From IMG/VR virus record IMGVR_UViG_3300044959_000131, positions 62,001 through 126,000 of that record: a DNA stretch of 64,000 nucleotides; one strand, written 5' to 3'. The notes beneath the pieces are model-generated. The model saw nothing but the letters and a program-made list of their open reading frames with translations. It was not told the DNA's origin and made no database searches. The translations under genes and the position numbers were made by a program. The stretch comes from a virus. Positions 25,614-51,249 of the stretch are shown here, in pieces. How positions within the stretch are numbered: position 1 is the stretch's first letter; each line of letters begins with the position of its first letter.

Positions 25614-27674
25614 ATGTCATTCGACAGCCTCAGCCTTGGATTTGGTGGAACTTCACGCTTTTCTGGTCAGCGTGGACGTACTGCGGACGGCATGTCACGG
25701 AGCGGTATTCGTTACCCGTCTCCGTTCTTTGACATCGGACATACCTACCTGCCGCCGTCCCTCAAGGCTCTTCTCAGGTGGTGTAGGTACTACTACCTCG
25801 TGAATCCGCTCATCAACGCGGTCATTCACAAGATGTCGGAGTATCCAATCACCGAAATTGTCATCGACGAAAAGGACCCCGAAATCAAAAACAAATGGGA
25901 CTCTCTCCTTGGAGAGATTCTTCGGATTCGTCCATTTCAAATAGAGGTTGGCCTGGACTACTACACATACGGGATGTGCATTGTCACGATTCACTTCCCG
26001 TTCGACAAGTTCCTTATCTGCAGGAACTGCGGATTCAAAGACAAGGCGACGAAGATCAACTACCGTTGGCGTAACCTCGACTACATTGTCGATTGCCCAA
26101 AATGCGGCCACTCGGGACCTGCAAAGGTTCAGGACTTCTACAAGCGAGATGTCAACGGCATCCGATTGATGAGGTGGAATCCAGAGTACGTGAACATCGA
26201 TCCGGCATTTGCTGGTGCAGATCCAGTCTACACATTCGAGCTCCCACTTCAGGTCCGGAATGACGTCATCCTCGGTAAGAAGAGTGTGCTCGACACCATC
26301 CCGGACACATTCATCGAGGCGATGAAGAGGAACAAGTATGTCCGTTTCTCAGACGACAACCTCTTTGTTTTCAAGCGGCCCATCATCAGCCAGAAAGATT
26401 CTGGTTGGGGTATGCCGCTCATCTTCCCTGTCCTCAAAGACACGTTCTATCTACAGATATTGAGGAAGGCACAAGAGGCTATTGCTGCTGAGCACATTGT
26501 TCCACTCCGAGTTCTCTTCCCACAACCCGGCTCTGCATCCTCGGATCCATACTCGACGATTTCACTCGACTCGTGGAAGAGCAGGATCGAAAGCGAGATC
26601 GCGAAGTGGAAATACGACAACAACTACATTCCTATTCTCCCTCTTCCAATCGGAAATCAGACCATCGGCGGGCAAGGCCGTGCGTTGATGCTTCACCAAG
26701 AGATGGAGGTCTGGTCTAGGCAGATCGTTGCTGGGATGGGTGTTCCGCAGGAATTTGTATTCGGTGGAATGCAGTACTCTGGATCCAATGTCTCGATGCG
26801 AATGGTCGAGAACATGTTTCTTGGGTACAGAACCGATCATGATTTGATGCTCAATCACTTTGCCATCAAGCGCATCGCTCATTTCATGGGGTGGCCGCCT
26901 GTGAAGGCACACATGAGACGATTCAAGATGGCAGATGACCTACAACGTTCAGCCTTCTTCTTTCAGCTAAATCAAGCTGGAAAGATTTCAGACCAGACGT
27001 TGCTGCAAGAAGTTGATTTCGATCCAGCAACTGAGGAGACTCGTCGCAAGATTGAGCTAGACAAGCAACTTGAGTTCAATCGCAAGATGCAAGTCGCTCA
27101 AGCTTCTATTCAGGGCGAGATGCAAATCGTTCAGGCTCGCTATCAAAAGCGGGTTTCAGAGCTTATGCAGCCTCCTGCCGAGAATATGTCTCCTGTAGCT
27201 CCTCAAATGGCTGAATCCGGAGGTGGTGCTCTAGTAGAGCCGCCTCCTCCAGAGAATCCTTCAGAGAACACTGAAGGCGGTCCAGTTACGACACCGGAAG
27301 GTGAAATGCTACCTGGTAAACAAGTCGACCCGGCCATGCCTTCTAATTCGACAGTGTCATTCGAGAATGCTCAGAGTGCTCCATCAGAGGGTATCCCACC
27401 AGAGATGATGAGCCCACTCTCGGCGAGCATGAAGGGCGGTGGATTCAATCTTCTCTATTTGGCACGACGTGCGGCAACCGCGCTTCTCAAGATGGATGAA
27501 GGTCAGAGGATGGCCGAGATGAACAACATGAAGATGACCAACCCTCAGCTATACAGCCTAGTATTACAGCTTTTGAATCGCGAAAGAGGATCGCAGGAGA
27601 ATCCTCTTGATGCTGTTCAAAGCCCTCAGCCGCAGATTAAGCCCTCACGTCGTGCGAGCTCAACTGGTGTTTGA
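25614..27674 (+). CDS. Portal protein with zinc-ribbon insert
   Basis: 686 residues. The overall pattern matches large-phage portals: an N-terminal aromatic region with RWCRYYYLVNPLINAVI, a core with WGMPLIFPVLKDTFYLQIL and GMGVPQEFVFGG, and a C-terminal helix-rich tail. The portal forms the DNA entry ring and motor platform at one head vertex. A CRNCGF ... CPKCGHSG insert near 140-170 is likely a zinc ribbon and is unusual for this family. The C-terminal 150 residues are Pro/Gln/Glu-rich. It follows the small FTDELEKIA protein and is followed by convergent minus-strand genes. Confidence 0.85.
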   Translation: MSFDSLSLGFGGTSRFSGQRGRTADGMSRSGIRYPSPFFDIGHTYLPPSLKALLRWCRYYYLVNPLINAVIHKMSEYPITEIVIDEKDPEIKNKWDSLLGEILRIRPFQIEVGLDYYTYGMCIVTIHFPFDKFLICRNCGFKDKATKINYRWRNLDYIVDCPKCGHSGPAKVQDFYKRDVNGIRLMRWNPEYVNIDPAFAGADPVYTFELPLQVRNDVILGKKSVLDTIPDTFIEAMKRNKYVRFSDDNLFVFKRPIISQKDSGWGMPLIFPVLKDTFYLQILRKAQEAIAAEHIVPLRVLFPQPGSASSDPYSTISLDSWKSRIESEIAKWKYDNNYIPILPLPIGNQTIGGQGRALMLHQEMEVWSRQIVAGMGVPQEFVFGGMQYSGSNVSMRMVENMFLGYRTDHDLMLNHFAIKRIAHFMGWPPVKAHMRRFKMADDLQRSAFFFQLNQAGKISDQTLLQEVDFDPATEETRRKIELDKQLEFNRKMQVAQASIQGEMQIVQARYQKRVSELMQPPAENMSPVAPQMAESGGGALVEPPPPENPSENTEGGPVTTPEGEMLPGKQVDPAMPSNSTVSFENAQSAPSEGIPPEMMSPLSASMKGGGFNLLYLARRAATALLKMDEGQRMAEMNNMKMTNPQLYSLVLQLLNRERGSQENPLDAVQSPQPQIKPSRRASSTGV

Positions 27675-29245: not shown

Positions 29246-32200
29246 ATGCGTAGAGGTAGAGCCTGGCAAGCCATAACCCACCTACGCATAGTGGGCGACA
29301 TTAGAGAGGGCACCTTGTCGACGCTAACACCAGAGGGTTCTTTCGAAATTCTCAAGAACAACGTCGTACGCGCCATCTCTTCCTACTTCCCCTACGAGGG
29401 AAAACAGAGGAAGTTGGAGCTACACAAAGTCTGGGTTGATGACAAACTTCATACTGATGACATCAAGTCACAGACTGAGGCAAAGGACCTAGACAAGACG
29501 TGGGGCGTACCAGTCAAGGCAGATGTCTCTCTCGTCGACAAAACGACAGGCAAAGTCATCGATCGAAAGACGATGACCATTGCCAGATTACCGAAGATGA
29601 CGAACCGGTACGGGTTCATCGTCGATGGGAATGAGTACCAGATCGACCATCTCTTCCGTTTGAAGTCCGGGGTGTACGCCAGAATTCAGGACAACGGCGA
29701 CCTGGAGTCAGAGTTCAACCTCGTCAAGGGACCTGCTGGTAACAGGTTCTCAATCCTCCTTGAGAGAGAGTCCAAGAAGTTCTTCCTGAAGCAGGGGGAC
29801 GCAAAGATTCCACTATACCCAATACTCAAGTCTCTAGGTGTATCAGACGATGAGATTGAGAAGAGTTGGGGAAAGGAAATACTCGCTGCCAATCGACCAA
29901 AAACCGAAGAGAAGACCTTAAAGAGTCTTCAGACCTTTTGGAAGAAGACGTCGTTCGAAGACCAGACGGAGCCGAGTGATTTAGGTGGTTATGCCCGCTA
30001 TGTACACGACTTCTTCGATAAGACGGTCCTTCGACCAGACACAACAAAGATCACTCTTGGAAAGCCAGCAACTAAGGTTGATGGTTCTGTTCTTCTGACG
30101 GCCGCGAACAAGATTCTCGGTGTTTCTAGAGGGACCCATCAGCCAGACGATAGAGACAGCCTTGCGTTCAAGGAGATCGTATCGATAGAGGACTTCCTGC
30201 CAGAGAAGATTGAGCGATCCATGAGGACGATTCGTGGAAAGCTCCGTAACACGATTGACCTCAAAGACAAGAAATCTGTCTCTGAAGTTTTGTCTACTGA
30301 CCTTTTTGCTCGCCCAATCCGTGAGTTCTTCACAAAGGGCGGCTCTTTGACGGAGAGGCCTGACCAGACGAATCCTATTCAAATGATGTCTGGTCACAGG
30401 AAGACGACGTTGATGTCTTCCGACCTTGGAGGAATCAAGAAAGAACATTCCATCACGGATGAGATGCGTGTCATCAATCCGAGCCACTTTGGGTTTCTAG
30501 ACCCAATGCATACCCCGGAGTCAGAGAAAACAGGCATCACTCTACATCTGGGAATGGCGGCTAGGAAAAATGGAAAAGATCTTGAGACTCCTGTCTTCAA
30601 CGTCAAAGAAAACAAGATTCAATACCTAAATGCAACAGACTTTCATAACAGTCATGCTGTTCTACCAGACCAGGTTCGCTGGGTCGGTGGCAAGCCTGTT
30701 CCGATAGCCGAAAACGTCAAGATGAAGCTCCCAGGTGGGAGCATCGAGGTTCGACCATTCAGAGAAGCTCAATACGTCATGCCGTCCGCAAAGGGCATGT
30801 TCGACATCGCTTCGAATCTCATACCTTTCTTACCATCGAACCAAGGCAACCGTGTTTCGATGGCTGATAAGCAGATGGAGCAGGCCATCTCTCTAAAGTA
30901 TAGAGAGGAGCCTCTCGTACAAACCAAGACCGACCATGCGGACCCGAATCTGACATTCGAAAAAGTTCTCGGTGGGTTCACATCTCATAGAGCTCCAGTC
31001 TCAGGTAAAGTCGTCTCCGTAAAGAACGATTCAATTACCATCAGTGACGGTAAGAAAAAGCACCAAGTTCATCTCTATGAACACTTCCCCCTCAACGACC
31101 CAAAGGGGATGATGCACTCAGAGCCTGTCGTGAAGGTCGGAGACACGGTCCGACAAGGACAGGTTATTGCTGACAACAACTTCACCAAGAATGGAACGCT
31201 CTCGCTTGGAGTGAATCTTCGTGTCGGATACATCCCTTACAAGGGCTACAACTACGAAGATGGTATCGTTATATCTGAGAGCGCCGCAAAGAAACTCACG
31301 TCCGAACACCTCTATAAGAAGAAGATCGAACTCGATCCTGAGAACGACGTCATTTCAAAGAGCAAGTTCATCGCTTATGCTGCTACCAAAGCCAATCAGC
31401 TAACAAAAGAGCAGCTTGATCTATTGGACGATGATGGAGTCATTCGAGTTGGTTCCAAGGTTCGTCCAGGTCAAGTTCTGATTGCAGCAGTCGGTAAGAA
31501 CCTTACGACACGCCAAGGTAGTGCTCTCGCAGCTCTAGGAAAGAGGGCCTTTCAGCCGTACAAGGATAAGTCACTTGTATGGGACGAAGACCACGTTGGC
31601 GAAGTCGTAAAGGTCATCAAAGATCCATCTGGAAAAGGGGTCAAGGTATACGTCAAAACTGAAGAGCCACTGGTTGTAGGTGACAAGTTGTCAGGCCGTC
31701 ACGGTAACAAAGGAATCGTGACGATGATCCTTCCTGACCACGAGATGCCGTTCACCATAGACGCCGACGGAAAACGACGTCCACTTGAAGTCCTTCTCAA
31801 CCCAACAGGTGTTCCAACACGTATCAATGTTGGTCAAGTTCTGGAAACGGCGGCCGGTAAAATTGCTGAGAAGACAGGAAAGCCGTACATCGTCAATAAC
31901 TTCTCAGGCCCGAACACGAACTACCGTGAACAGGTACTGAAAGACCTTCGTGCTCATGGCCTTAGAGACGAAGAGCTTGTCTACGACCCAAAGGACCCGA
32001 AAAGGCCACTTGGCTCGGTTCTCGTCGGTCCTCAGTATCTTTTGAAGCTTAAGCATCAAGTTGAGAAGAAGCTCACAGTTCGTGGAGGTGGGACGGATGT
32101 TACCGGTCGTGGACTTCCATACGATATAGATAGGACCCCGACAAAGGGAGGAGAGAGAGGGGGCCAAGGCTTTGGAGCCCTCGACGTCTACGCCCTTCTT

Positions 32201-35200
32201 GGACATGACGCTCGCCATAATCTTCGTGAGATGGCGACTCAAAAATCCGACTTCCAAGACATGACGTTCTGGAACATGGTCCAAGAAGGCCATGAACCAC
32301 CTCCCCCGAAGCCGCCGTTCAGCTACGAAAAGTTTGTCAGTCTACTGAAAGGTCTCGGAGTCAACGTCGAAAAGAAAGGAACGGCTCTTCAACTCTCTCC
32401 ACTCACAGACCGTCATGTCATCGAGATGGCTGGAGGCCATAAGGGTGAGTTGAAGAATCCACATCTCGCCCTTCGAGCTAAGGACCTGAAAGAAGAACGT
32501 GGTGGTCTGTTCGACCCAGTTGCGACTGGCGGTATCGTTGGAGACAAGTGGAGCTATATCAAGCTCACGGAGCCGATGCCGAACCCAATCTTCGTCGGCT
32601 CAAACAACCGTCCTGGACCCATTCCGGCTCTACTTGGATTGAAGCTCAAAGAGCTTGATGAGGTCATGAAAGGCGTTCGACAGATCGACGGTAAGACAGG
32701 TGGCATGGCCATATACGATGCCTTGAAAAAGGTTGACGTCGACAAAGAACTCGCTGCTCTTCGTGAGAAGCTTCCTACACTCACAGGTGCAGCTCTCGAC
32801 CGTGCGAATAAGAAGTTCAAATATCTGTCGGCTCTGAAGGAAGCAGGTCTGAAGCCTCATGAAGCGTACGTCATGAACGTAGTTCCGGTCATCCCTCCGG
32901 TGTTCCGACCTGCTACCGTCACACAAAATGGCGATGTTCAGTACTCGTCTTTGAACGGACTATACAAAAACATCGCCATACTCAACAACAAGCTCAGCGA
33001 AGTAGATCCAAAGGTATTCTCTGAAGAACACAGGTCTCCTCTTCGCTGGCAGCTCTACGACAGCCTGAGGGCTCTTCAATCGGTTGGCGGTTCCGTCGGC
33101 TACGACATCGACTCTCCAGGAAGCAAGAGAAAGTTAAAGGGAATCCTCGACATCATAGGTGGAGGAGAGGGTGAGCAGCCGAAGGAAGGCTATTTCCAGT
33201 CCAAGCTGGTCAAGCGAAGGCAGAATCTATCCATCCGCTCAACAATCGTTCCAGAGCCAAAACTTGGAATCGATGAAGTAGGTATTCCAAGAGGCGCAGC
33301 GATGGAGTTGTACAAGCCATTCGTTGTAGCCGAGCTAGCTCACCACGGCTTTGATCCTCTATCTGCTCAGCAAGAGATGAGGAACGGAACGAAGGCTGCG
33401 TACGACGCACTTGAGAAGGTCATCAAGGAACGGCCTCTTCTTCTCAAACGCGATCCAGCTCTTCACAAGTTCTCGATCATGGCCTTTACACCTAGGCTCG
33501 TAGAGGGAAAGGCCATTCAGATTCATCCTCTAGTTACTGGTGGATACAACGCCGATTTCGACGGTGACACGATGGCCGCAACTGTCCCTCTAACAAGAGA
33601 GGCCGTCGAAGAAGCGAAGAAGATGTTTCCTTCGAAGAACCTCTTCTCCCCTACAACCGGTGGTGTAATGTATTCGCCGACTCAAGAAGCGCTCCTCGGA
33701 CTTCATCTTCTTTCGAAGTGGGGCAAGCCTATCGGCAAAACATTCTCAAACCCACTCGAGCTGAACAAAGCTGTTCAGAGAGGAGAGGTTCACCCAACAG
33801 ACGTCGTAAAGGTAGGAAACAAGGAAACGACATTTGGACGATTGCTTCTTGAGTCTAGAATGCCAAGGGACTTCTACCTCAATAAAGACATTCTCCACAA
33901 CCCATCATTCGTTATCGACAAGAAGACACTCAATAGCCAAATCATCACACCTCTTGCTAAGAATCACACTCGAGAATTTGCTTCCGTCGTTGACGAATTG
34001 AAGAATCTCGGAAATGAGTATTCCTTCAAGATGGGATTCTCTTTCGGACTCAAGGACCTCGAAACAATCCCTCAAAGGGACGTAATACTCAAGGGCGCAC
34101 ACAGAGAGGCCGAGGCTGCAAGACGCTCAATTAAAGATAAGGATGCGCTGAACACCAAGCTCATCGACATCTATCAAAAGGCGACAGCTAAACTTGAGGA
34201 GGCCGTAAAGAATACACCGTCCGATAATCGCCTCGCGACGATGGTTACCTCAGGAGCTCGCGGTAAGCTAGAACAGCTACGACAAATGATTGCTGCTCCG
34301 ATGTTGGTTCAGGATTCCCAGAACAACATCATCCCAACACCTATTACTAAGAGCTACGCAGAGGGTCTGGACATTGGTGACTACTGGCTCGCCCAGCACG
34401 GTGCGAGAAAAGGAACTCTTCAGAGAGTACTTGGAACTTCAGAGCCTGGGGTCGTCTCAAAGGACATCATGAATACAACGATGTCCACTCTCATCGTCTC
34501 ACCCGATTGCAAGACGAATCATGGCCTGCTGATGGATGTTACTCACAAGGATATCGTAGATCGATTCACTGCGAAGCCCTACAAGTTGAAGGATGGAACG
34601 ATCATCAAGGCAGGAACACTTCTAACTCCAGAGATTCTGAACCGACTCAAGAACTCAAAAATTGACAAGGTCCTGGTTCGAAGCCCTCTTAAATGCAATC
34701 ACGGAGATGGAATCTGCGCGAAGTGTTTTGGGTTGAACGAGTCTGGAAAGCTGCACGACGTCGGCACAAATATTGGCGTGCTCGCTGGTCAAGCTCTGTC
34801 AGAACCAGCCGTCCAAATGGCGATGGACGCATTCCACACTGGCGGAGTCGCAACGGGTCGTGGATCTCTGTCCGTAGATAGGCTCACTAGACTTGGAGAT
34901 ACCTTGAGAATGCCGAAGAAGTTGAAGAACTCGGCCACCCTAGCTCGTGTAAGCGGAAAAGTTACGGACATCAAAAAGGATGCCGTCGGAGGTGTCGACA
35001 TCTTCATTGGTGGAGAGAGGCACTACGTTCCAAAGCATCTCGTGTCTCCAGACATCAAGATTGGAACCGAGGTGAAGAAGGGCATGCCAATATCAAAGGG
35101 GTTTATCAACCCTCACCACCTCCTTCCACTGACAGACATCCATACCGTTAGAAACTTTCTCACAGACGAGATGTACAGCGGACTGTATGAGAAAGAAGGT

Positions 35201-35575
35201 GTTAGAAAGAGAAACGTCGAAGTAGTGGTACGTGCTCTTACCAATCTCACGAAGATAAAGGATCCAGGTTCGAGCACATTCATACACGGAGATGTGGCCC
35301 CTACCTCTATCGTTGAGGAGTTCAACCGTAACCTGCCAAAGGGAAAGAAGCCAATTGTTCATGAGCCCATGCTGAGAAGCATTGAACAGGTCCCATTGAT
35401 CGGTTCTACAGACTGGATGGCTCGATTGAACTACCGAGAGCTGCACAACACAATACAGCAAGCAGCGGCTCAGTCTTGGAAGTCCGATATCCACGGCAGA
35501 CATCCAATTCCGGGTCTGGCGTTTGGTGCTGAGTTTGGGAAGCCGCCGCCCGGCAAGCCGAAGGGTGCCTACTGA
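29246..35575 (+). CDS. Single-chain beta-beta' multisubunit-type RNA polymerase
   Basis: 2109 residues, far shorter than a bacterial rpoB plus rpoC but with both conserved cores. The beta part (about residues 1-1010) shows LPKMTNRYGFIVDG, DPMHTPESEKTG, YKGYNYEDGIVISE, LSGRHGNKGIV (near 815-825) and LLNPTGVPTRINVGQ. A Pro-rich linker (PPPPKPP, near 1018-1024) joins it to a beta' part with NADFDGDTMA (from 1435), the magnesium-binding catalytic loop. Later come the bridge-helix and trigger-loop region (QHGARKGTLQRVLGT) and a zinc site (CNHGDGICAKCF). The beta' N-terminal zinc site is absent. No alpha, omega or sigma gene is recognised in the window. It sits between portal and spike genes. The ATG at 29246 lacks a close Shine-Dalgarno; a TTG downstream is a possible alternative start. 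Confidence 0.95.
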   Translation: MRRGRAWQAITHLRIVGDIREGTLSTLTPEGSFEILKNNVVRAISSYFPYEGKQRKLELHKVWVDDKLHTDDIKSQTEAKDLDKTWGVPVKADVSLVDKTTGKVIDRKTMTIARLPKMTNRYGFIVDGNEYQIDHLFRLKSGVYARIQDNGDLESEFNLVKGPAGNRFSILLERESKKFFLKQGDAKIPLYPILKSLGVSDDEIEKSWGKEILAANRPKTEEKTLKSLQTFWKKTSFEDQTEPSDLGGYARYVHDFFDKTVLRPDTTKITLGKPATKVDGSVLLTAANKILGVSRGTHQPDDRDSLAFKEIVSIEDFLPEKIERSMRTIRGKLRNTIDLKDKKSVSEVLSTDLFARPIREFFTKGGSLTERPDQTNPIQMMSGHRKTTLMSSDLGGIKKEHSITDEMRVINPSHFGFLDPMHTPESEKTGITLHLGMAARKNGKDLETPVFNVKENKIQYLNATDFHNSHAVLPDQVRWVGGKPVPIAENVKMKLPGGSIEVRPFREAQYVMPSAKGMFDIASNLIPFLPSNQGNRVSMADKQMEQAISLKYREEPLVQTKTDHADPNLTFEKVLGGFTSHRAPVSGKVVSVKNDSITISDGKKKHQVHLYEHFPLNDPKGMMHSEPVVKVGDTVRQGQVIADNNFTKNGTLSLGVNLRVGYIPYKGYNYEDGIVISESAAKKLTSEHLYKKKIELDPENDVISKSKFIAYAATKANQLTKEQLDLLDDDGVIRVGSKVRPGQVLIAAVGKNLTTRQGSALAALGKRAFQPYKDKSLVWDEDHVGEVVKVIKDPSGKGVKVYVKTEEPLVVGDKLSGRHGNKGIVTMILPDHEMPFTIDADGKRRPLEVLLNPTGVPTRINVGQVLETAAGKIAEKTGKPYIVNNFSGPNTNYREQVLKDLRAHGLRDEELVYDPKDPKRPLGSVLVGPQYLLKLKHQVEKKLTVRGGGTDVTGRGLPYDIDRTPTKGGERGGQGFGALDVYALLGHDARHNLREMATQKSDFQDMTFWNMVQEGHEPPPPKPPFSYEKFVSLLKGLGVNVEKKGTALQLSPLTDRHVIEMAGGHKGELKNPHLALRAKDLKEERGGLFDPVATGGIVGDKWSYIKLTEPMPNPIFVGSNNRPGPIPALLGLKLKELDEVMKGVRQIDGKTGGMAIYDALKKVDVDKELAALREKLPTLTGAALDRANKKFKYLSALKEAGLKPHEAYVMNVVPVIPPVFRPATVTQNGDVQYSSLNGLYKNIAILNNKLSEVDPKVFSEEHRSPLRWQLYDSLRALQSVGGSVGYDIDSPGSKRKLKGILDIIGGGEGEQPKEGYFQSKLVKRRQNLSIRSTIVPEPKLGIDEVGIPRGAAMELYKPFVVAELAHHGFDPLSAQQEMRNGTKAAYDALEKVIKERPLLLKRDPALHKFSIMAFTPRLVEGKAIQIHPLVTGGYNADFDGDTMAATVPLTREAVEEAKKMFPSKNLFSPTTGGVMYSPTQEALLGLHLLSKWGKPIGKTFSNPLELNKAVQRGEVHPTDVVKVGNKETTFGRLLLESRMPRDFYLNKDILHNPSFVIDKKTLNSQIITPLAKNHTREFASVVDELKNLGNEYSFKMGFSFGLKDLETIPQRDVILKGAHREAEAARRSIKDKDALNTKLIDIYQKATAKLEEAVKNTPSDNRLATMVTSGARGKLEQLRQMIAAPMLVQDSQNNIIPTPITKSYAEGLDIGDYWLAQHGARKGTLQRVLGTSEPGVVSKDIMNTTMSTLIVSPDCKTNHGLLMDVTHKDIVDRFTAKPYKLKDGTIIKAGTLLTPEILNRLKNSKIDKVLVRSPLKCNHGDGICAKCFGLNESGKLHDVGTNIGVLAGQALSEPAVQMAMDAFHTGGVATGRGSLSVDRLTRLGDTLRMPKKLKNSATLARVSGKVTDIKKDAVGGVDIFIGGERHYVPKHLVSPDIKIGTEVKKGMPISKGFINPHHLLPLTDIHTVRNFLTDEMYSGLYEKEGVRKRNVEVVVRALTNLTKIKDPGSSTFIHGDVAPTSIVEEFNRNLPKGKKPIVHEPMLRSIEQVPLIGSTDWMARLNYRELHNTIQQAAAQSWKSDIHGRHPIPGLAFGAEFGKPPPGKPKGAY

Positions 35576-36657
35576 TGGCCGTTACACATCAAGGATTAGT
35601 TGGTGCTTACGTCGAGTCTGGAAGAGTTCTGGACGTCGACATCAGCAACTACACCCTGACGGTGACTACGCAGTACTCCAAGAAACCACAGACTGGAATA
35701 ACTTGGTCGAGCCCCTATCTCCACTTTGCAAACGGAGAGGGTGTGTACATCATGCCAGAGGTCGGAAGCCTCTGCTGGATTTGTTTCCCATCCGACGGAA
35801 ACAGACCATTCGTTCTTGGATGGGCGCCAGCTGGGGACGAAGGCGACTACCGCTCACGTAGACAGTCCCTGAATCCCGGGGACATCTATCTTGGAACCCG
35901 GGACGAGAACTTCATGATTCTAAGACGGGGAGGAATCGTTCAGATCGGCGGAGGACCTCTCTGTCAGAGAATGTTTCTGCCGGTGAATAACACGATCAGG
36001 GATTTCTGCGAGAACTACGCTCTCAAAACAATTGGTGGAGACCTTACTTGGACTGTCGAGAGGACCGAGAACAGTACAGACGGAAAGAGACCAGCTGTCT
36101 TATCTCTTCTAGCTCGTGAAATGGCAAATGACGCCAAACCCATTGCAGAGCTTCTCATTGGTTCCCACGGAAGTGGAGACAAGACTATCATCAGCCTGAA
36201 AATCAAGGAGTCTGGAGAGGATGGGGCAGCCACCAACATCGAGCTAAGGCTCGATAAGGACGGGAACGTGAAATGGGAAGTGAGGAAGGATGTTCAGTGG
36301 GAAGTCGACGGAAAGTACTCGATTCGGGCGAAGCAGGACGTCCTTTTCAAGAGCGACACCAAGGTCTCGATCGAAGGCGGCTCTACAATAGAAGTAACTG
36401 GTTCTTCTGGAGTAACAATCAGAGCATCGACAGGGATTGTAGAGATCGTCGGCTCACCGCTTGTCAAGATGAATTCGAGAGTAATGGTCGGAAATGCGCC
36501 GCAACCAGTTGCTCTTGCGCCACCACTTTTGACGTGGCTGGCCACGCACATACATAACATCATCGTACCAGTTCCTGGAACCCCAACAACACCACCAGTG
36601 GTTCCACCACCGATTCCGGCAATCACATCAACAACGTTGCTCGCAAGTCCTCAGTGA
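35575..36657 (+). CDS. Baseplate spike-like protein (gpV/gp45/gp5 type)
   Basis: 360 residues, coupled to the RNA polymerase stop (TGATG). An N-terminal OB-fold-like barrel (RVLDVDISNYTLTV ... GSLCWICFP) leads to a C-terminal run of short repeats (KTIGGDLTW, KWEVRKDVQWEV, VSIEGGSTIEVTGSS) typical of the triple beta-helix of membrane-piercing spikes. Near the end, THIHNIIVPVPGTPTTPP resembles the metal-binding tip region of such spikes. This suggests a myovirus-like contractile tail. Tip identity is inferred from pattern. Confidence 0.75.
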   Translation: MAVTHQGLVGAYVESGRVLDVDISNYTLTVTTQYSKKPQTGITWSSPYLHFANGEGVYIMPEVGSLCWICFPSDGNRPFVLGWAPAGDEGDYRSRRQSLNPGDIYLGTRDENFMILRRGGIVQIGGGPLCQRMFLPVNNTIRDFCENYALKTIGGDLTWTVERTENSTDGKRPAVLSLLAREMANDAKPIAELLIGSHGSGDKTIISLKIKESGEDGAATNIELRLDKDGNVKWEVRKDVQWEVDGKYSIRAKQDVLFKSDTKVSIEGGSTIEVTGSSGVTIRASTGIVEIVGSPLVKMNSRVMVGNAPQPVALAPPLLTWLATHIHNIIVPVPGTPTTPPVVPPPIPAITSTTLLASPQ

Positions 36658-36667
36658 GGAGAAGCAA

Positions 36668-38716
36668 ATGCGTCCACTCTTCCTCGACAAGCTACAAGAG
36701 ACCGTAAACGAGTTCCGAAAAGAGTCTGGGTACATTTACCGTCTCTCTGAGGTTCCCGATAACTGGGCTCAAGAGATCGGTAGTGAGCTTTACAAGCAGC
36801 TGCCGTTCCTCTCGGACTACGAGGTCAACGTATCTATCGATAAGAAAGACCCGGGTCGTGGCTTCGCATTCGGCTACGCCGATGTGTCAAACAAAACCGA
36901 GCGCCCAGAAGTTGAGCACGAGGAAGCTGGTATTCCACATATCAGGATTCCAATCATCGCTGAGGAGCGTCAGCTCCGTCCGTTCTCTGTGTTCCTTGAC
37001 GGGGAACGTGTTCTACCGATGACTGAAGAGCGTGTCCGTGAGGCGCTCTTCAACCCGGCAACATTCGATCTATCAAACTCGGTTCCGAGGGACCCAAGCC
37101 TCGTCGAGCCACTCATGCCTCCTCAACGCTCAGGTATCGGGTTGGGAGGCGAGTATAAGATGGCCTCTATTGCACCGAAGTTAGGGTCGATTGATTCCTC
37201 AAAAAATCTCAGGTCGTCGACTATTTCTCACGGTTCCAATAAGACAGCTTCTCTCCTTCAAGCTATCGCTCCAACGATTCGCGAGTCAGACCGCGACAGA
37301 TTCGTCGAGAAGGTCGCTTCAGACCCGACCATCAGAGCCGGCTTTCGAAGGTCTGGTATAGCGGAACTTCTTATCGATGTCATGGACACGAAGCTTGCGT
37401 CCGAGAGCGATAGACTTTCCGCCCTCGCAGATATCATCGAGCCGTCGGTTGTGACTTTACAAAAGCTTCCAGGTGGGGACTTCATTGTGAAGTCCGCGAA
37501 CGTGAATGCCTTTGTTGGTGGCGATCAAGCTGCTGGTCAAGTGGTTCCTTTCGATGAAGTCGCGGAGGCCATAGGAAGAGACGCCGCCAAGTCTCTTCAA
37601 CCTGGACAGATAGCGACAGTTGTGTCAGACCCTGTTCAGATTGATGGAGATGACGCAAACGCCGTCTCTGACGTTTCTGAATTCGGGACATACAAAGTAC
37701 AAGATTCCAACGGAAAGCAGATGGAGGGGTGGGTATTTCCAGAACTCTTGAACTGGGACAAAGATTTCACTCCCCAGAAGACACGACTCTTTCTCAATGG
37801 AAATGTGCACTCTATTCAAGATAGCATCGTTGGAGAGAGGGTCGGCTCATCGTCCCGTATTCCAGAAGACATTCCAAAAGGAGAAGGTGTATTTCGGCCT
37901 GCTGACGGTCGTGTAGCCACGGCTCCCATTACAATTCAGTACGGAACAACGAATTCACAAGGCATCCACACATACGTTGGCACTGACTCTTTTGGGAACG
38001 AGATCAGGGTATCGTTGGTGCCACACCTAAAGAAACCGCAGCGCATCTCTGACAACGAGTTTGCTTTGCCGAAGGATTGGGGCTTCACGAGACTGAATAA
38101 GAGGGTAAAGCTTGTCTCGAATGAGAACGCTTTTGGCCTCTCCAAGAAAGTCAGCAAGGAAAAGACTTCCGCCACCCTCTTCTATAACGGCTCGTTCAAC
38201 ATAACTGGCGGCTGTGGCTTGGACAAGATCTCATCCGACCTCAGATATGACCTGGATGCCGTCGGAGCCGAGTTCATCTTAGGACTACTCGGTGTCGACG
38301 GCGTGACGGCAAAGCAGAAAGTTGCAGAAGCCCGCAAAGTCGGATTCGTCAAGCTGTCCGGTCTACGAACCATCAGGACTCTTTCCGAGCGTTATCAGCA
38401 AGCAGTCAAAGAAGCTTCGGCCTTCCTGCACAAAATCCCAGACTTGAGGAGAGATCTAATCAAAGAGGCGGCCGCAATCGAGGATCAAGGAACTGTCGAT
38501 AAGGTCTTGGCGCTCAACTTCATCAATCCGGAGAACCTGTCTACGTTCATCGAATACCTGCCAGAGCTTGAGCAGACAAGCGAAAGAATGGCAGAGATGG
38601 TGTTGGCTGGTTACCTCGGGATGAAAGAAATCCCTCTTGGTGCAGTAGAACGCTCAATGCGAAACATGGAAGAAGTAATTCAAGGTCTCAAAGCAATCCA
38701 GCATTCTCACGATTGA
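36668..38716 (+). CDS. Large probable virion protein, unknown
   Basis: 682 residues following a GAGGAG about 3 to 8 bases upstream. Residues 1-160 form one region with ALFNPATFDLSNSVPRDPS. Later come short motifs of the recurring type (KMASIAP, NKTASLLQA, VEKVASDPT, DTKLASES). The central region is beta-rich, and the end is helical (ERMAEMVLAGYLGMKE). No family is recognised. Its place after the spike and before the J-domain protein suggests a virion or head-related role, but this is inference. Confidence 0.7.
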   Translation: MRPLFLDKLQETVNEFRKESGYIYRLSEVPDNWAQEIGSELYKQLPFLSDYEVNVSIDKKDPGRGFAFGYADVSNKTERPEVEHEEAGIPHIRIPIIAEERQLRPFSVFLDGERVLPMTEERVREALFNPATFDLSNSVPRDPSLVEPLMPPQRSGIGLGGEYKMASIAPKLGSIDSSKNLRSSTISHGSNKTASLLQAIAPTIRESDRDRFVEKVASDPTIRAGFRRSGIAELLIDVMDTKLASESDRLSALADIIEPSVVTLQKLPGGDFIVKSANVNAFVGGDQAAGQVVPFDEVAEAIGRDAAKSLQPGQIATVVSDPVQIDGDDANAVSDVSEFGTYKVQDSNGKQMEGWVFPELLNWDKDFTPQKTRLFLNGNVHSIQDSIVGERVGSSSRIPEDIPKGEGVFRPADGRVATAPITIQYGTTNSQGIHTYVGTDSFGNEIRVSLVPHLKKPQRISDNEFALPKDWGFTRLNKRVKLVSNENAFGLSKKVSKEKTSATLFYNGSFNITGGCGLDKISSDLRYDLDAVGAEFILGLLGVDGVTAKQKVAEARKVGFVKLSGLRTIRTLSERYQQAVKEASAFLHKIPDLRRDLIKEAAAIEDQGTVDKVLALNFINPENLSTFIEYLPELEQTSERMAEMVLAGYLGMKEIPLGAVERSMRNMEEVIQGLKAIQHSHD

Positions 38717-38756
38717 CTAGGAAATAGACGTAACACAAACTTAAAGGAGAAAAACA

Positions 38757-39836
38757 ATGCTCAAGCCGAAGCACCTCACACACCTCATTCTCCCTACCGT
38801 AGGTGCTGTCGGTGGTGGACTATCCTCACATCATATAGCCAAGAAGAAGATTGAGAGTTCCCCTAAGTTTAAAAAGCAGCTCGAGTCTAGACCAGGAGGG
38901 TCCAAAAAGTACATCGCGTCGAAGACTATAAGAGGTGCTCTTGGTGGATTGGGTATTGGAGCTGGCACTGAGCTATCTCGTTCCTTGTATGGTCTACGAA
39001 AGTCTCTCATCAGAACAGCAGTTCCAAAGGCTAGAGTTACAAAGGATAGATTCGGAAAGGCGAAATCAGTCATTCCAGTTCCAGATTGGTTGAAGGGAGT
39101 AACGACAAAGGCAGAAGCTAAGAAGAAGTACCGAGAGATGGCAAAGAAGTACCACCCAGATCGTAACCCTGGTGACAAGAGTGCCGAAGAGAGGTTCAAG
39201 GATATTGCGAGTCAGTGGAAGAGTTTCACAGAGAGTGATGAATTCAAAAAGCTCGGCTCTTCTATGTACGCGATCATGAAGCACATTTCTGGTGGACCCA
39301 TCATGAAGAACATCTCTCATGGTGGTTCTAAGGGACCTACAGAAGCAGCTGCACAAGTCGCGTCTGTAGCAGCAAAGTCCAAAGAGATGAACAAACTGAA
39401 AAAGTTCTTCTGGAGAAACTTTCGCAAACGCAGGTTGAAATACTATATTGGACGTCCTCTACTCAGCGTACCAATTGCTGCATCCACAGCTGGTGGTGCC
39501 GTTTTAAAAGGTATACAATCGATCACGCCAGAGGATCGTAAGAAGAAGCGTGCACTTAAGGCTTTTGGGAAAGGCGCTATCGAAGGTGCGGCTATTGGTG
39601 GACTAGGTGGTCTTGCAATTGGAGGGGTTCTACATCAAGGTCATAGACTATTACGTCACAGCATTCGTGATTCGTATCGAAATCTGAAAAAAGCTATCAA
39701 CTTTAGGGAGAGGTATATTCAAGACATGAGAAGTAGAGGACAGAGCGTACCGACTAGTGAGCTCTCCGGCCTAGATGCTGATAAGAAACGGTTAGAACGC
39801 CTAAAGAAAATCCTCTTTCCAAAGAGTAAAGAATAA
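38757..39836 (+). CDS. J-domain (DnaJ-like) protein with glycine-rich segments
   Basis: 359 residues with AAAGGAG upstream. A J-domain is centred at residues 121-155, with the invariant HPD at 133-135 (YREMAKKYHPDRNPGD) and a following helix EERFKDIASQW. J-domains stimulate Hsp70 (DnaK) ATPase. Flanking Gly-rich stretches (GALGGLGIGAG; GAAIGGLGGLAIGGV) look membrane-packing. No G/F-rich linker or zinc centre is present, so it is not a full DnaJ. Its place among probable virion genes suggests it may recruit host DnaK during assembly or early infection; this is inference. Confidence 0.82.
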   Translation: MLKPKHLTHLILPTVGAVGGGLSSHHIAKKKIESSPKFKKQLESRPGGSKKYIASKTIRGALGGLGIGAGTELSRSLYGLRKSLIRTAVPKARVTKDRFGKAKSVIPVPDWLKGVTTKAEAKKKYREMAKKYHPDRNPGDKSAEERFKDIASQWKSFTESDEFKKLGSSMYAIMKHISGGPIMKNISHGGSKGPTEAAAQVASVAAKSKEMNKLKKFFWRNFRKRRLKYYIGRPLLSVPIAASTAGGAVLKGIQSITPEDRKKKRALKAFGKGAIEGAAIGGLGGLAIGGVLHQGHRLLRHSIRDSYRNLKKAINFRERYIQDMRSRGQSVPTSELSGLDADKKRLERLKKILFPKSKE

Positions 39837-41845: not shown

Positions 41846-43276
41846 ATGTCTCTATCTGCCAGAGACTTCATCCTTCAGAAGCTGGCTGAGTACGCTCCTG
41901 GAATCCCAGACAAGGAGACTGCTCACCCTCTTCCAAAGATTGATAAGCCAACGACGTGGGAGTTTGGTCTCCACGAACACCACGCCGAGAAGAGAGGTCT
42001 GCACTACGACCTACGACTCGGTGACCCGAGAAGCGGTCATGCCCATTCCTGGGCGCTCCCAGCAAAATGGCCCGGCCCCGGAGAGCACATCTGGGCCATT
42101 CAGCAGCCGACTCATACCGTCAGGTACATGGATTTTGAGGGACATATTCCGAGCGGATACGGTGCTGGGAAGGTCGTCCTCAAGGACCGAGACAAGATCG
42201 AGGTGACGAAGGCAGAGCCTGGGTACATCTCCTTCAACATCTATCGTGGAACGGGCCCTGAGGAATACTCTCTCCGTCACATCGGAGGAAAGGTCTGGCG
42301 TTTTGTGAACAAGACTATTCATAGGGAGAAGCACCAGCATATACCTGAAAAGAAGCCGGATTACAAGGAGGTTCCTGTTTCGAAGGTTCCTATAGATGAC
42401 CCTCGCTATGTGATGTCGGCAAAGATTGATGACGCTCACAACATCTTCTACTTCCCGAAGGCTGGTGAGCAGGTAAGGGTCATATCTTACAGGAAGTCAA
42501 AACGAGCCCCAGGCGGGTTCATCGAGCATACCCACAAAGTTGATGGTATTTTTGGTAAAGAGACTCCAAAGGAACTGGCCAACACAGTTGCCAGAGGTGG
42601 TCTCTACGCAATCAATCCGAATACTGGACGTGCCACTGAGGCTAACATAATTGGCGGGATGCTTAATTCAAACGTCTGGAAGTCTCGTGAGAAGCAAAAG
42701 GATTTTGGAAAACTCGTACCTGTTCTCTATGACATAGACATCTTCAGGGGCAAGGATCTTTCAAAGGCGCCGTACAGGGAAAAGCTCATGGCTCTGAAAC
42801 AGATTCAGAGAGCCATGCCTGGTGTGTTTGAACTCCCAGATATGGCGTTCACCGTCGAGGAGAAGAAGAAGCTCCTTGAGGACATAAAGAATAAGAAGCA
42901 CCCACAGACAGAAGAGGGAGTCGTTCTGTGGAACGCCGTCAAGAGCGAGCCTCCAATAAAGGCCAAGTTCCGCACTGAAAGAGATGTCATCATCAGGGGT
43001 TTCTTTCCTGGAGAAGGACAGCACAAGGGTAAAGGAGTTGGAGGGTTTGTCTACTCGATGACGAAGGACGGACCAATTGTCGGGAGAGTCGGCACTGGTC
43101 TGTCTCACGCTCAGAGACGGGACATGTACAAGAACCCGGAGAAGTACATAGGACTCGTAGCAACTATTGGGTCTCAAGGAGAATTCAAGAGTAAAGCCCT
43201 CAGAGCACCAAGTTTTCTACGATTCCACCTTGACAAGAATCCTCAGTCTCGATTGGACCAGATTCAACTGTCGTAG
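41846..43276 (+). CDS. ligD-like: LigD-like 3'-phosphoesterase fused to a DNA ligase adenylation/OB-fold domain
   Basis: 476 residues. Residues 40-110 hold the phosphoesterase signature: EHHAEKRGLHYDLRL (44-58), SWALP, then FEGHIPSGYGAG (97-108), as in LigD 3'-phosphoesterases. A ligase-like part follows: a K-x-D-[GD] site SAKIDD (lysine 193), YDIDIFRG (295-302), EEGVVLW (357-362), KAKFRTERDVIIRG (372-385) and an OB-fold end (VGTGLS ... APSFLRFHLDK). The fourth site residue is Asp where Gly is usual, so activity needs checking. The N-terminus DFILQKLAEYA (7-17) resembles the recurring virion motif. In bacterial NHEJ, such domains clean and seal DNA ends. Placement with virion genes suggests packaging; no Ku gene is visible. 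Confidence 0.87.
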   Translation: MSLSARDFILQKLAEYAPGIPDKETAHPLPKIDKPTTWEFGLHEHHAEKRGLHYDLRLGDPRSGHAHSWALPAKWPGPGEHIWAIQQPTHTVRYMDFEGHIPSGYGAGKVVLKDRDKIEVTKAEPGYISFNIYRGTGPEEYSLRHIGGKVWRFVNKTIHREKHQHIPEKKPDYKEVPVSKVPIDDPRYVMSAKIDDAHNIFYFPKAGEQVRVISYRKSKRAPGGFIEHTHKVDGIFGKETPKELANTVARGGLYAINPNTGRATEANIIGGMLNSNVWKSREKQKDFGKLVPVLYDIDIFRGKDLSKAPYREKLMALKQIQRAMPGVFELPDMAFTVEEKKKLLEDIKNKKHPQTEEGVVLWNAVKSEPPIKAKFRTERDVIIRGFFPGEGQHKGKGVGGFVYSMTKDGPIVGRVGTGLSHAQRRDMYKNPEKYIGLVATIGSQGEFKSKALRAPSFLRFHLDKNPQSRLDQIQLS

Positions 43277-44950: not shown

Positions 44951-44993
44951 TGAATGGCAAAATGATTTGAGCCAAGCGAGTGGTGGCGGTATC

Positions 44994-47858
44994 ATGGAAA
45001 GAATGCTAGTCGTTTCTTCAGATGATTATGACCGCAGCAATCGCGACGTCATTATTTCTGAGAGTGGTGAGCCTGAGCTTCCCGAAGAGTGGGACTACGA
45101 ACCTCAGGTCTTCGATGGGTTTCTCGACGACTCACAGCTTGCCAAGAAAAGCTCCGAGTTGATCGGTGTATACCCTTCTCAATTCGTCGAGTTTGCGATT
45201 CGTATACCCGACAAGAAGACTCAGCAATTAGTACCGTTCTCTTTTGAAAAACGTAGGTATCTTCGACTCCCATACGACACCCCAGCGAAGAGGACGCTTT
45301 ACAAGTGCGGGCGACAAGTTGAGAAGAGTACATTGTTGGGGAACAAGTGTTTGGCGTACTGCTGCATTATCAATGCATTCAATGTTTTGTACGTCGCCCC
45401 AACGAACATGCAAACAAAGACCTTCTCACAAGACCGTTTGAAGGAGCCCATCGAAACGTCCGATGTTTTGAAGTCTTGGACAACCCCCAAACTCAGCGAC
45501 AACGTATTTCTCAAGAAGTTCATCAATCGTAGCCAGATTACCCTCCGCTACGCTTACCACAACGCAGACCGTACTCGTGGTATCCAGGCAGACCTTGTTC
45601 TAATTGACGAGATTCAAGACGTCATCACGGACAATATCCCAGTCATCGAACAATGTGCCTCGCACTCCACATTCAAGCTCTTCATGTACTCAGGAACACC
45701 GAAGAGCTTCGACAACCCAATTGAGCATTACTGGACCAACTTCTCGACCCAAAATGAGTGGGTCGTTCCGTGCGATCGCCACGGCGTTCCAAGTGACCCA
45801 TCAACATGGTTCTGGAACATTCTAGGTGAGGAGAACATCGGTAAGAAAGGTCTCATTTGTTCGAAGTGTGGAGAGCTCATCCATGCACTGAGACCAGAAG
45901 CACAGTGGGCTTCCATGAACCCAGAGGTTCGAAAGAAGCTGACTGAGCCGTATGAGGGTTACCGAATCCCTCAACTCATGGTGCCGTGGATGGAGTGGAG
46001 CGAAATTCTCGACAGCTACGCTACATACCCTCGTCAGAAGTTCTTCAACGAAGTTCTCGGGATGTCGTACGACTCAGGAACCAGGCCCCTGACTCGGCAA
46101 GACATCATCGACAACTGCAGTTCCGACATTGTCATGTCTCAAGAAGGGTTGTCGAGAATTCGTTCGAAGATGAGTGGAGGGATGGAGGTTTTTGCCGGAA
46201 TCGACTGGGGTTGCCACGACGAGGAGACACGGATTCTCACCGATAGCGGCTTCAAATACTTTCGAGACCTGACCGACAACGACAAAGTCGCTCAATGGGA
46301 TCCTGATACACGGTTGATGTCATTCGTGTATCCGAAGGTCCGAACGGTCCGTGAATGGGATAAACCACTTCTCCATTTCAAGGCGAATGGGTTGGACATG
46401 ATGTTGTCCGACCCTCATCGAATGAGAGTGAGACCTCTCAATGATGATGGGACGGGAAAGTGGATTACGGAGCCAGCGAGTAAAACCGCAGAGCGTGGTG
46501 GCAACGTAAAATTCGTTGGGTACGTCGATTGGGACGGGTCCGAAGAAGAGTACTTCGTATTGCCCAGTCGGGACCAAACTACTGGTTACAGCGGTAGTGA
46601 AGATCGTATCTACCGCATGGATGATTGGTTGGAATTTCTCGGCTATTATTTGTCAGAGGGTTCTATCTGCTTTGATGGAGATAATCCATCATGCATCAAA
46701 CTATCTCATCGGGAATCCGTAAATCTTGAGCAGGCTCGTAGGATTGGAAGTCTGCTACAGCGGCTCTTCCCAAATGATCTATCTACGATACAACACCCAG
46801 AGACTGGTTACATCGATTGGACAATCTACGGTAAACAGCTCTGGAAGTGGGTTCATGACCAAGTCGGAAAGTTCGACGACGAGAAGAGAATACCGAGGAG
46901 ATTTCTGAATCTCTCGAAGCGCCAACTTCGAATTCTCTTCGATGCCATGATGCTTGGAGACGGAGGTGGCGGCAAAAGAAGAGGACGTACCAATGGTCGC
47001 TACTGCTCGACTTCCAAGGGTCTCTGCGAAGACTTCCAGGAGCTTTGCATCCGCCTAGGACTCCGTAGCACTCTGTCATTGCATAAGAGGGCTGAAGGAA
47101 ACCGTAAGGCCATATGGAGAGTTTCTTGGTCTCCTGGAAGAGACTTCGAATTCAACAACCCCAAGCAGAGAGTTAAGAGAGTTCCATACAATGGAAAGGT
47201 ATACTGTTGCTCCGTTCCATCTGGATACATCATCACTGAGAGAAACGGCTGCATCGCTTATCAAGGGAACACAGGAGAGAACACGTTTTCTGTGATGGCC
47301 CTTGGTACATACTTGGATGGAAAATTTACCATCTTCTACATCCACAGATTCGAAGGACAGGAGGTCGAACCACTCGTTCAACTCGACCTGATCGAGAAGC
47401 TGATTTACTACTGGGACGTCAGGCTTGTCGGAGTCGACTATGGCGGCGGCTTCGATCGTAACGATGCTCTTGCTAGAAAGTTCGGCAAGAACCGAATCGT
47501 GAAATATCAGTACTCTCAGCCAAGTCAGAAGGTGCGATGGGACGAGGGGCTGCACAGATTTTTGGTCCATCGGACAGAGGTGATGACTGACATTTTCACT
47601 GCCATAAAGAGAAGAAACGTTTTCAGGTTCCCGACCTGGGAGCAGTTCGAAGACCCATTTGGCAGGGACATGCTGAACATCTTCTCCGAATACAACGATC
47701 AACAGAGGCAGATCCAATACAAGAAGAGTCCAGACGCAACGGATGACTCATTCCACGCCATTCTTTTCTGCTTTCTTGCCTCGATGCTTCGACACCCAAG
47801 GCCGGACGTTTTGGTGCCGACTCAGAAGACGAATAGCTCGATGGACCATGACAGCTAA
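44994..47858 (+). CDS. terL: Terminase large subunit interrupted by an intein
   Basis: 954 residues before splicing, about 601 after. The ATPase part has the terminase-type P-loop CGRQVEKST (near 45305-45335), with Glu in place of the usual Gly, a variant seen in some large-phage terminases, and a Walker B LVLIDEIQDV. The nuclease part carries GIDWG, which is split by the intein (46212-47270), then GVDYGGG and DATDDSFHAI supplying the RNase H-like acidic residues. The packaging motor cuts and translocates the genome. The ATG at 44994 is the chosen start; a TTG at 44967 and an ATG at 45003 are possible. Confidence 0.92.
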   Translation: MERMLVVSSDDYDRSNRDVIISESGEPELPEEWDYEPQVFDGFLDDSQLAKKSSELIGVYPSQFVEFAIRIPDKKTQQLVPFSFEKRRYLRLPYDTPAKRTLYKCGRQVEKSTLLGNKCLAYCCIINAFNVLYVAPTNMQTKTFSQDRLKEPIETSDVLKSWTTPKLSDNVFLKKFINRSQITLRYAYHNADRTRGIQADLVLIDEIQDVITDNIPVIEQCASHSTFKLFMYSGTPKSFDNPIEHYWTNFSTQNEWVVPCDRHGVPSDPSTWFWNILGEENIGKKGLICSKCGELIHALRPEAQWASMNPEVRKKLTEPYEGYRIPQLMVPWMEWSEILDSYATYPRQKFFNEVLGMSYDSGTRPLTRQDIIDNCSSDIVMSQEGLSRIRSKMSGGMEVFAGIDWGCHDEETRILTDSGFKYFRDLTDNDKVAQWDPDTRLMSFVYPKVRTVREWDKPLLHFKANGLDMMLSDPHRMRVRPLNDDGTGKWITEPASKTAERGGNVKFVGYVDWDGSEEEYFVLPSRDQTTGYSGSEDRIYRMDDWLEFLGYYLSEGSICFDGDNPSCIKLSHRESVNLEQARRIGSLLQRLFPNDLSTIQHPETGYIDWTIYGKQLWKWVHDQVGKFDDEKRIPRRFLNLSKRQLRILFDAMMLGDGGGGKRRGRTNGRYCSTSKGLCEDFQELCIRLGLRSTLSLHKRAEGNRKAIWRVSWSPGRDFEFNNPKQRVKRVPYNGKVYCCSVPSGYIITERNGCIAYQGNTGENTFSVMALGTYLDGKFTIFYIHRFEGQEVEPLVQLDLIEKLIYYWDVRLVGVDYGGGFDRNDALARKFGKNRIVKYQYSQPSQKVRWDEGLHRFLVHRTEVMTDIFTAIKRRNVFRFPTWEQFEDPFGRDMLNIFSEYNDQQRQIQYKKSPDATDDSFHAILFCFLASMLRHPRPDVLVPTQKTNSSMDHDS
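46212..47270 (+). other. LAGLIDADG-type intein in the terminase nuclease domain
   Basis: 353 residues, in frame. It starts with Cys (CHDEETRIL) right after GIDWG and ends QGN before extein T, rejoining GIDWG to TGENTFS. LAGLIDADG-like blocks LGYYLSEGSI and LFDAMMLGDGG are present. The extein +1 residue is Thr, and the residue before the terminal Asn is Gly rather than the usual His, so splicing chemistry may be altered. Excision would restore the nuclease active-site strand. Confidence 0.9.
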
Positions 47859-50616: not shown

Positions 50617-51249
50617 ATGACTACTGAAGATATTCTTACAGCTGTTTCTGAGTCCCATCCAGAGATGATGGCCAAGACGGCTAAAATCATTGCCATAACC
50701 GAGCGACTTTATCCGGAGTTCGTTCCAGGTATCATCTCTGATTTCGAGACCATTTGCTCAGTCGTCAATGAAAAGACGGCAGAGAAGATGACCGGATTGA
50801 AGCCTTATGCGATTGGTATCGCTGGTACTGTTGCAGGTGGTCTCTTAAGTGCCATCGCAACCGACCTCTACGACGCTGCCAAGCGCGGTCTCACAAAGGG
50901 ACGTAACTTCAAACGCATCATGGAGGCCAATCCAAATCTCAAGAGGGAAGTAGATAAGAAAACCCTCTTAATGGCATATGACACGCTTCATAGGTATGCT
51001 CCAGAATTTACTGCAGATCCGCTTCTCGGTGGAGCTCTCCTAAAGAACATCTCAGAGCTTCCAAACATGAGTCACAAGACCATTGTCGAACTAATTGGTG
51101 CGCAGAAGAATATAGCTGATGCCAAGAGCCGATACTTCTCTGAAATGTCAAAGCTTTCTCCACTTCTCGTCCCAGACAGCGGTCATACAGAAGTAAGATA
51201 TGAGGGCGGGGTTGAAAAGTCGAGAACGGTTAGACGTCCAGGTGTCTGA
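50617..51249 (+). CDS. Probable virion protein with membrane-like segment, unknown
   Basis: 210 residues. After an N-terminal helical region with AKTAKIIAI, a hydrophobic Gly-rich stretch (YAIGIAGTVAGGLLSAIA) lies near residues 67-85, then a helical C-terminal region. It ends in TGATG overlap with the prohead protease start. No family is recognised. Confidence 0.65.
   Translation: MTTEDILTAVSESHPEMMAKTAKIIAITERLYPEFVPGIISDFETICSVVNEKTAEKMTGLKPYAIGIAGTVAGGLLSAIATDLYDAAKRGLTKGRNFKRIMEANPNLKREVDKKTLLMAYDTLHRYAPEFTADPLLGGALLKNISELPNMSHKTIVELIGAQKNIADAKSRYFSEMSKLSPLLVPDSGHTEVRYEGGVEKSRTVRRPGV

Follow-up and report, generated by a model that had tools for sequence, protein, structure and literature searches.

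Results

A single-chain RNA polymerase in a conserved structural block

The window, meaning the whole 64,000-nucleotide stretch analyzed here, comprises bases 62001-126000 of the 176,945-bp IMG/VR record IMGVR_UViG_3300044959_000131 and holds the single RNA polymerase (RNAP) gene copy of that record. The gene lies on the plus strand, as do all of its parts and the neighboring block described below, and is one open reading frame (ORF) running from ATG at 29246 to TGA at 35575, 2109 codons with no internal stop. Pfam matches along it Rpb2_2, Rpb2_3 and Rpb2_6 and then Rpb1_1 through Rpb1_5, in the cellular order, the best E value being 3e-63 (Rpb2_6) and that of Rpb1_2 being 1e-28, and a phmmer search of the PDB returns bacterial beta' chains with E values down to 3e-119. 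PHROGs assigns two unnamed families, one to each half, and its phage RNAP beta families match less strongly. One chain therefore carries a complete beta core (residues ~26-1045) followed by a complete beta' core (~1049-2109), as the initial annotation had claimed for this phage protein, and the uninterrupted frame, the Pfam order and the relatives described below bear this out. In most relatives the match begins only at residue ~20-36, so that the start codon is uncertain by about 25 codons and the first ~25 residues are correspondingly uncertain.

The anatomy of the chain was read from its alignment with E. coli RNAP and with the relatives. The beta-homologous part (residues ~1-1045, 29246-32380) aligns up to the C-terminal end of E. 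coli beta and contains, in the motif DKLSGRHGNKG (31682-31714), the two active-site lysines of the beta double-psi beta-barrel (DPBB; E. coli K1065 and K1073). Several residues of the rifampicin pocket are changed, E. coli H526 to G, S531 to T and Q513 to E. Near the end of the beta part stands the sequence PPPP (32297-32308), in which three of the four prolines are invariant among close relatives. The initial annotation took this region for a Pro-rich linker between the subunits, a reading that is ruled out by the alignments of the beta C-terminus and of the junction, because the stretch aligns with the C-terminal clamp element of E. coli beta. The beta' part begins only ~4 residues past the end of beta, where LSP...GELKNP...ERGGLFD of the phage chain matches ASP...GEVKKP...ERDGLFC of the beta' N-terminus. 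The Pro-rich stretch thus being the beta C-terminal clamp and the next residues the beta' N-terminus, the fusion is nearly linkerless.

Within the beta'-homologous part (residues ~1049-2109, 32390-35572; Pfam Rpb1_1-5 and the junction alignment), the clamp helices that form the sigma-2 docking element (32945-33088) are kept with changed contact residues, and they are followed by the catalytic Mg loop NADFDGD (residues 1435-1441, 33548-33568), the bridge helix (34376-34483), the four Zn2 cysteines (residues 1755, 1817, 1824 and 1827, 34508-34726) and the N-terminal part of the trigger loop, QMAMDAFHTGG (34787-34864). Equivalents of E. coli E813/D814, R678, R1106 and H936 are all present. The catalytic loop and the zinc site are accordingly as intact as first described, and since the catalytic residues are kept on alignment the initial reading does not fall by their loss. 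In the trigger-loop region, which it also described as intact, the histidine is kept and the equivalent of Arg933 is an aspartate. The beta' N-terminal zinc ribbon (Zn1) is absent, as had been noted, a short turn taking its place in the alignment to E. coli, and at the trigger loop nothing aligns with the long insertion of the E. coli type. Both places where sigma docks, the flap tip and the clamp helices, are retained, but the positions of the E. coli sigma contacts carry other residues. AlphaFold models of the two halves, built from a 10-sequence alignment, are of low confidence (mean pLDDT 51 and 54).

The RNAP gene lies between portal and spike genes, as originally stated, the spike being baseplate gpV. 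Upstream is the portal gene (25614-27674; PHROG portal, 31.5% identity to the portal gp204 of Salmonella phage Arash), a homologue of which precedes RNAP in most of the relatives whose flanking sequence is long enough. Downstream, the RNAP stop codon and the ATG of the gpV gene (OB domain, 35575-36657) overlap in TGATG. Homologues of gpV occur in 105 of 111 loci, and those of the next gene (36668-38716), whose 682-aa product has no family match, occur downstream in 104 of 111. The portal-RNAP-gpV block is conserved across the relatives. Two genes past gpV is a gene for a DnaJ-domain protein (38757-39836) with homologues in none of the 111 compared loci, and at 41846-43276 a LigD-type 3'-phosphoesterase is fused to an ATP-dependent DNA ligase. 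The sequence GGTATAAG(TA) recurs in intergenic regions, e.g., at window positions ~29169 and 48377 (the latter on the minus strand) and at other sites of the record, often upstream of minus-strand genes. It is a possible promoter element, given as a candidate in some intergenic regions by a k-mer search, but it is too weak to be claimed as a promoter motif and not significant by itself.

Fused and split relatives

The single frame is likewise unbroken in 13 IMG/VR relatives at 55-77% identity, and a fourteenth, incomplete in sequence, is 96% identical over the part present. At least 124 IMG/VR loci encode the four beta/beta' segments together in a single ORF, representing at least 91 distinct proteins after deduplication, a few of which are cut by contig ends. 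Because the 13 relatives and the 91 distinct proteins share the single frame, the ORF is neither a product of chance nor an assembly artefact, and the enzyme is not unique, a point raised at the outset, but a member of a widespread family. In what we term class II, beta and beta'N are one gene (~1525 aa) and beta'C is separate (~610 aa), as in the isolates Arash and Vibrio phage D69, and in class III beta (~1140 aa) and beta'N (~390 aa) are also separate genes. Both classes break beta' directly past the catalytic barrel, and phiKZ-type RNAPs break it at the same place, past the DPBB (PMC7598289). The window chain is colinear with the Arash polymerase, with 32% identity over 2010 residues.

Two further arrangements were seen. 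In Vibrio phage D181 (locus L018, 2926-8440) the RNAP gene, unbroken in phage D69, is in two pieces with a homing endonuclease gene between them that splits beta. Loci L201-L209, on contigs in bacterial metagenome-assembled genomes (MAGs), encode a diverged RNAP whose betaC and beta'N share an ORF of ~890-1135 aa. A normal rpoB is present besides in each of the genomes tested, and these are probably phage or element contigs binned into MAGs.

Separate trees of beta and of beta' each set the phages apart from 11 bacteria and so exclude bacterial contamination, the outcome that the initial annotation had named as its refutation. In a careful concatenated tree (49 rows, 808 columns) support is 100/100 for the phages, 98/98 for the full fusions and 100/100 for classes II and III together; class III nests inside class II, and L198, a class II row, lies apart from the remaining class II/III rows (100/99). 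The beta tree by itself does not group the full fusions into a single clade. On the concatenated tree the beta-beta' junction changes state twice and the beta' split once. With bacteria as the assumed root, this suggests a single basal fusion in the phage clade and a later loss of the junction in class III.

Intein-like insertions

Intein-like inserts of about 200-520 aa interrupt 13 of the 91 full-fusion RNAPs (L094, L012/L132/L133, L013, L062, L078, L101, L071, L160, L050, L059, L140 and L065) and bring their ORFs to 2391-3596 aa. Most start with Cys, and most terminate in GN or HN, followed by T, S or C. In the numbering of the window protein they are located at 425, 685, 815-826, 857, 1000, 1441, 1826 and 1860-1864, where 1441 is directly after NADFDGD, 1826 is in Zn2 and 1860-1864 is in the trigger loop. 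The RNAP of L094 has four of them. Elsewhere in the window, a homologue of the Arash structural protein gp222 (51249-56273) is enlarged to 1674 aa by several inteins, with three stretches of Intein_splicing together with LAGLIDADG and Hint domains, and the large terminase (44967-47858, 963 aa) has a LAGLIDADG_3-like segment at residues 661-722 that is probably an intein.

A sigma factor but no detected alpha or omega

The absence of sigma from the initial annotation holds for the window and fails for the record, since a sigma-70-type gene is located at genome positions 38074-39036, ~23 kb before the window starts. Its product is homologous to the Arash sigma factor Gp10, matches Sigma70_r3 above cut-off and belongs to a PHROG sigma factor family; region 2 is below Pfam detection in this product. 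A profile of the family matched against the PDB lists sigma factors only, RpoS and SigA included, over regions 2-4, and Sigma70_r3 is detected in five of the seven sigma members. Of six other full-fusion records searched, five have the gene, as do Arash and D69, and the one without it is a 79.8-kb fragment, so that the earlier appeal to unknown factors for promoter recognition gives way to a sigma-70-family candidate. Single-sequence queries of IMG/VR found no further sigma genes. Alpha (PF01193) and omega (PF01192), neither of which the initial annotation recognized in the window, have no match in nine of nine records with profiles that do match positive-control genomes and that very diverged forms could escape. 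The T7-type RNAP family PF00940 also gave no match, but its positive control was silent too.

Discussion

Proposed function and alternatives

The initial suggestion of a virion polymerase draws support from the published virion proteomics of Arash, the one phage of the family for which packaging is known and a relative at 32% identity to the window RNAP (PMC10585845). Gp206 (beta plus beta'N) has 3516 spectra, the top of all proteins, Gp216 (beta'C) has 1210 and the sigma factor Gp10 has 467 (PMC10585845). From these counts we calculate 2.3 spectra per residue for Gp206 and 2.0 each for Gp216 and Gp10, the portal standing at 1.5 and the capsid protein at 4.3, values compatible with roughly equimolar Gp206, Gp216 and Gp10, spectral counts being only semi-quantitative. 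Of the two Arash sigma factors, Gp10 and Gp196, the portions of the virion table examined contain only the former (PMC10585845).

We consider it likely that the window gene encodes a single-chain RNAP that does without alpha, depends on sigma, is packaged in the virion and starts early transcription in mReC-type tailed phages (multi-subunit RNAP-encoding Caudovirales; Weinheimer and Aylward, 2020; PMC7481178), and we infer its activity, sigma partnership, alpha independence, injection and own packaging. Specifically, beta and beta' in one polypeptide would make up an active DNA-dependent RNA polymerase of the double-psi-beta-barrel kind. The covalent join of the beta C-terminus to the beta' N-terminus would do what the alpha dimer does in assembly, so that core formation could require neither alpha nor omega. 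Promoters would be read by the phage's own sigma-70-type factor docked on the clamp helices and the flap tip. The enzyme would be made with the late structural genes of the portal-RNAP-gpV block, its translation coupled to that of gpV, and would then be packaged together with sigma and ejected with the DNA, so that transcription of the first genes would be independent of host RNAP. Counting against this reading are the Arg-to-Asp change in the trigger loop and the failure of sigma region 2 to reach Pfam detection.

A different role, possible though we think it unlikely, is that of an active but non-virion enzyme, made by host RNAP after infection and used for late genes like the phiKZ nvRNAP. 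The presence of a single RNAP in the record is in keeping with this, and the Arash authors themselves raise the point that the packaging signal might be carry-over of an abundant intracellular protein (PMC10585845). However, the Arash RNAP tops virion detection, one sigma out of two appears in the parts of the virion table examined, and the gene is placed within a structural block and overlaps gpV. That the virion protein is instead a non-catalytic structural relic of an RNAP seems very improbable: its apparent abundance in Arash virions is high (PMC10585845), but the catalytic residues are kept family-wide and the sigma gene is co-conserved.

It is also improbable, to a lesser degree, that a protease cuts the chain into beta and beta' at assembly to give a working enzyme of two chains like cellular RNAP. 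Class II and III relatives presumably function with separate chains, and the conserved, almost linkerless junction argues weakly against such cleavage. Bacterial-type rpoBC does occur in some "phage" database records, but contamination by rpoB-rpoC or a chimeric assembly has a negligible chance of being correct here, as it is refuted by the trees, with the phage clade at 100/100 apart from bacteria, by the phage hallmark genes that flank RNAP on both sides and by the number of distinct fusions.

More tentatively, the fused chain may represent the ancestral state of a large phage RNAP lineage, a one-chain core needing only a packaged sigma and neither alpha nor omega, from which the split phage RNAPs (the Arash type, then class III, possibly the phiKZ type) would have arisen by stepwise fissions at structural seams; we regard this as a rather doubtful proposal. 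The evolutionary series of one, two and three chains is relevant to how the split polymerases of jumbo phages originated.

Comparison with known systems

The closest published group is mReC, metagenomic tailed phages whose beta and beta' are caught by cellular-type HMMs, carry NADxDGD and form a clade apart from bacteria (PMC7481178). The likeness, drawn from the published criteria, is that the window RNAP has both beta and beta' on a phage contig, as one chain and by Pfam instead of COG models, exceeds 800 aa, carries NADxDGD and falls in a clade apart from bacteria. The mReC filters (both subunits matched, >=800 aa, NADxDGD; PMC7481178) would admit full fusions of this kind and exclude classes II and III, and many mReC enzymes are therefore probably fused, so that window-type enzymes may already be in that dataset. 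In its main text that paper calls beta and beta' "subunits" and refers to fusion for crAssphage alone, and the parts examined describe no sigma, synteny or inteins (PMC7481178). The major capsid protein family PF07068, present in 8 of 97 mReC contigs (PMC7481178), has no Pfam match at E<=0.01 in this record, which has instead a PHROG 2522 major head protein.

The Arash/D69 polymerase (Gp206 plus Gp216) is a colinear homologue with an RNAP gene adjoining portal and with a sigma gene, and is packaged in Arash, but its beta' is cut past the catalytic barrel into a second gene and its loop reads AADYDGD; Gp206, labeled "beta" in the Arash paper, also holds the N-terminal half of beta' (PMC10585845). 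The phiKZ/AR9 enzymes are likewise cell-type phage RNAPs without alpha or omega, and their vRNAP is packaged, but those phages have two enzymes of 4-5 polypeptides each (PMC7598289), whereas the window phage has one enzyme in one chain, distinct as first noted from the split phiKZ-like polymerases, and one RNAP locus in a 177-kb record that is possibly incomplete. The crAss-like/YonO and P23-45 enzymes are single-chain phage RNAPs akin to cellular ones, virion-borne in P23-45, but are highly diverged (PMC10770324), that of crAssphage having no match to cellular beta/beta' HMMs (PMC7481178), whereas the window RNAP keeps nearly the full cellular domain set and is matched by cellular models. With its Rpb2 and Rpb1 core domains, NADFDGD and two beta lysines it belongs to the double-psi-beta-barrel RNAPs, and it departs from the cellular form in having no detected alpha and omega partners.

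A cell-type RNAP class in tailed phages is thus known already through mReC, and the one-chain form, the packaged sigma and the putative active-site inteins are apparently undescribed, no literature on a beta-beta' fusion, a packaged sigma or active-site inteins in mReC-type phages having been found among open-access full texts. If the enzyme is active, phages that bring their own means of starting transcription would gain a family that includes cultured relatives.

Beta and beta' are also one chain in the natural rpoBC fusions of Helicobacter and Wolbachia and in the yeast killer-plasmid RNAP, none of which is known to be phage-encoded, and the cellular rpoBC fusions work with alpha, omega and the host sigma. 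If active, the phage protein of ~235 kDa together with one sigma would be a minimal sigma-dependent transcription machine of the cell type, and its single chain would allow a direct test of why alpha and omega are needed.
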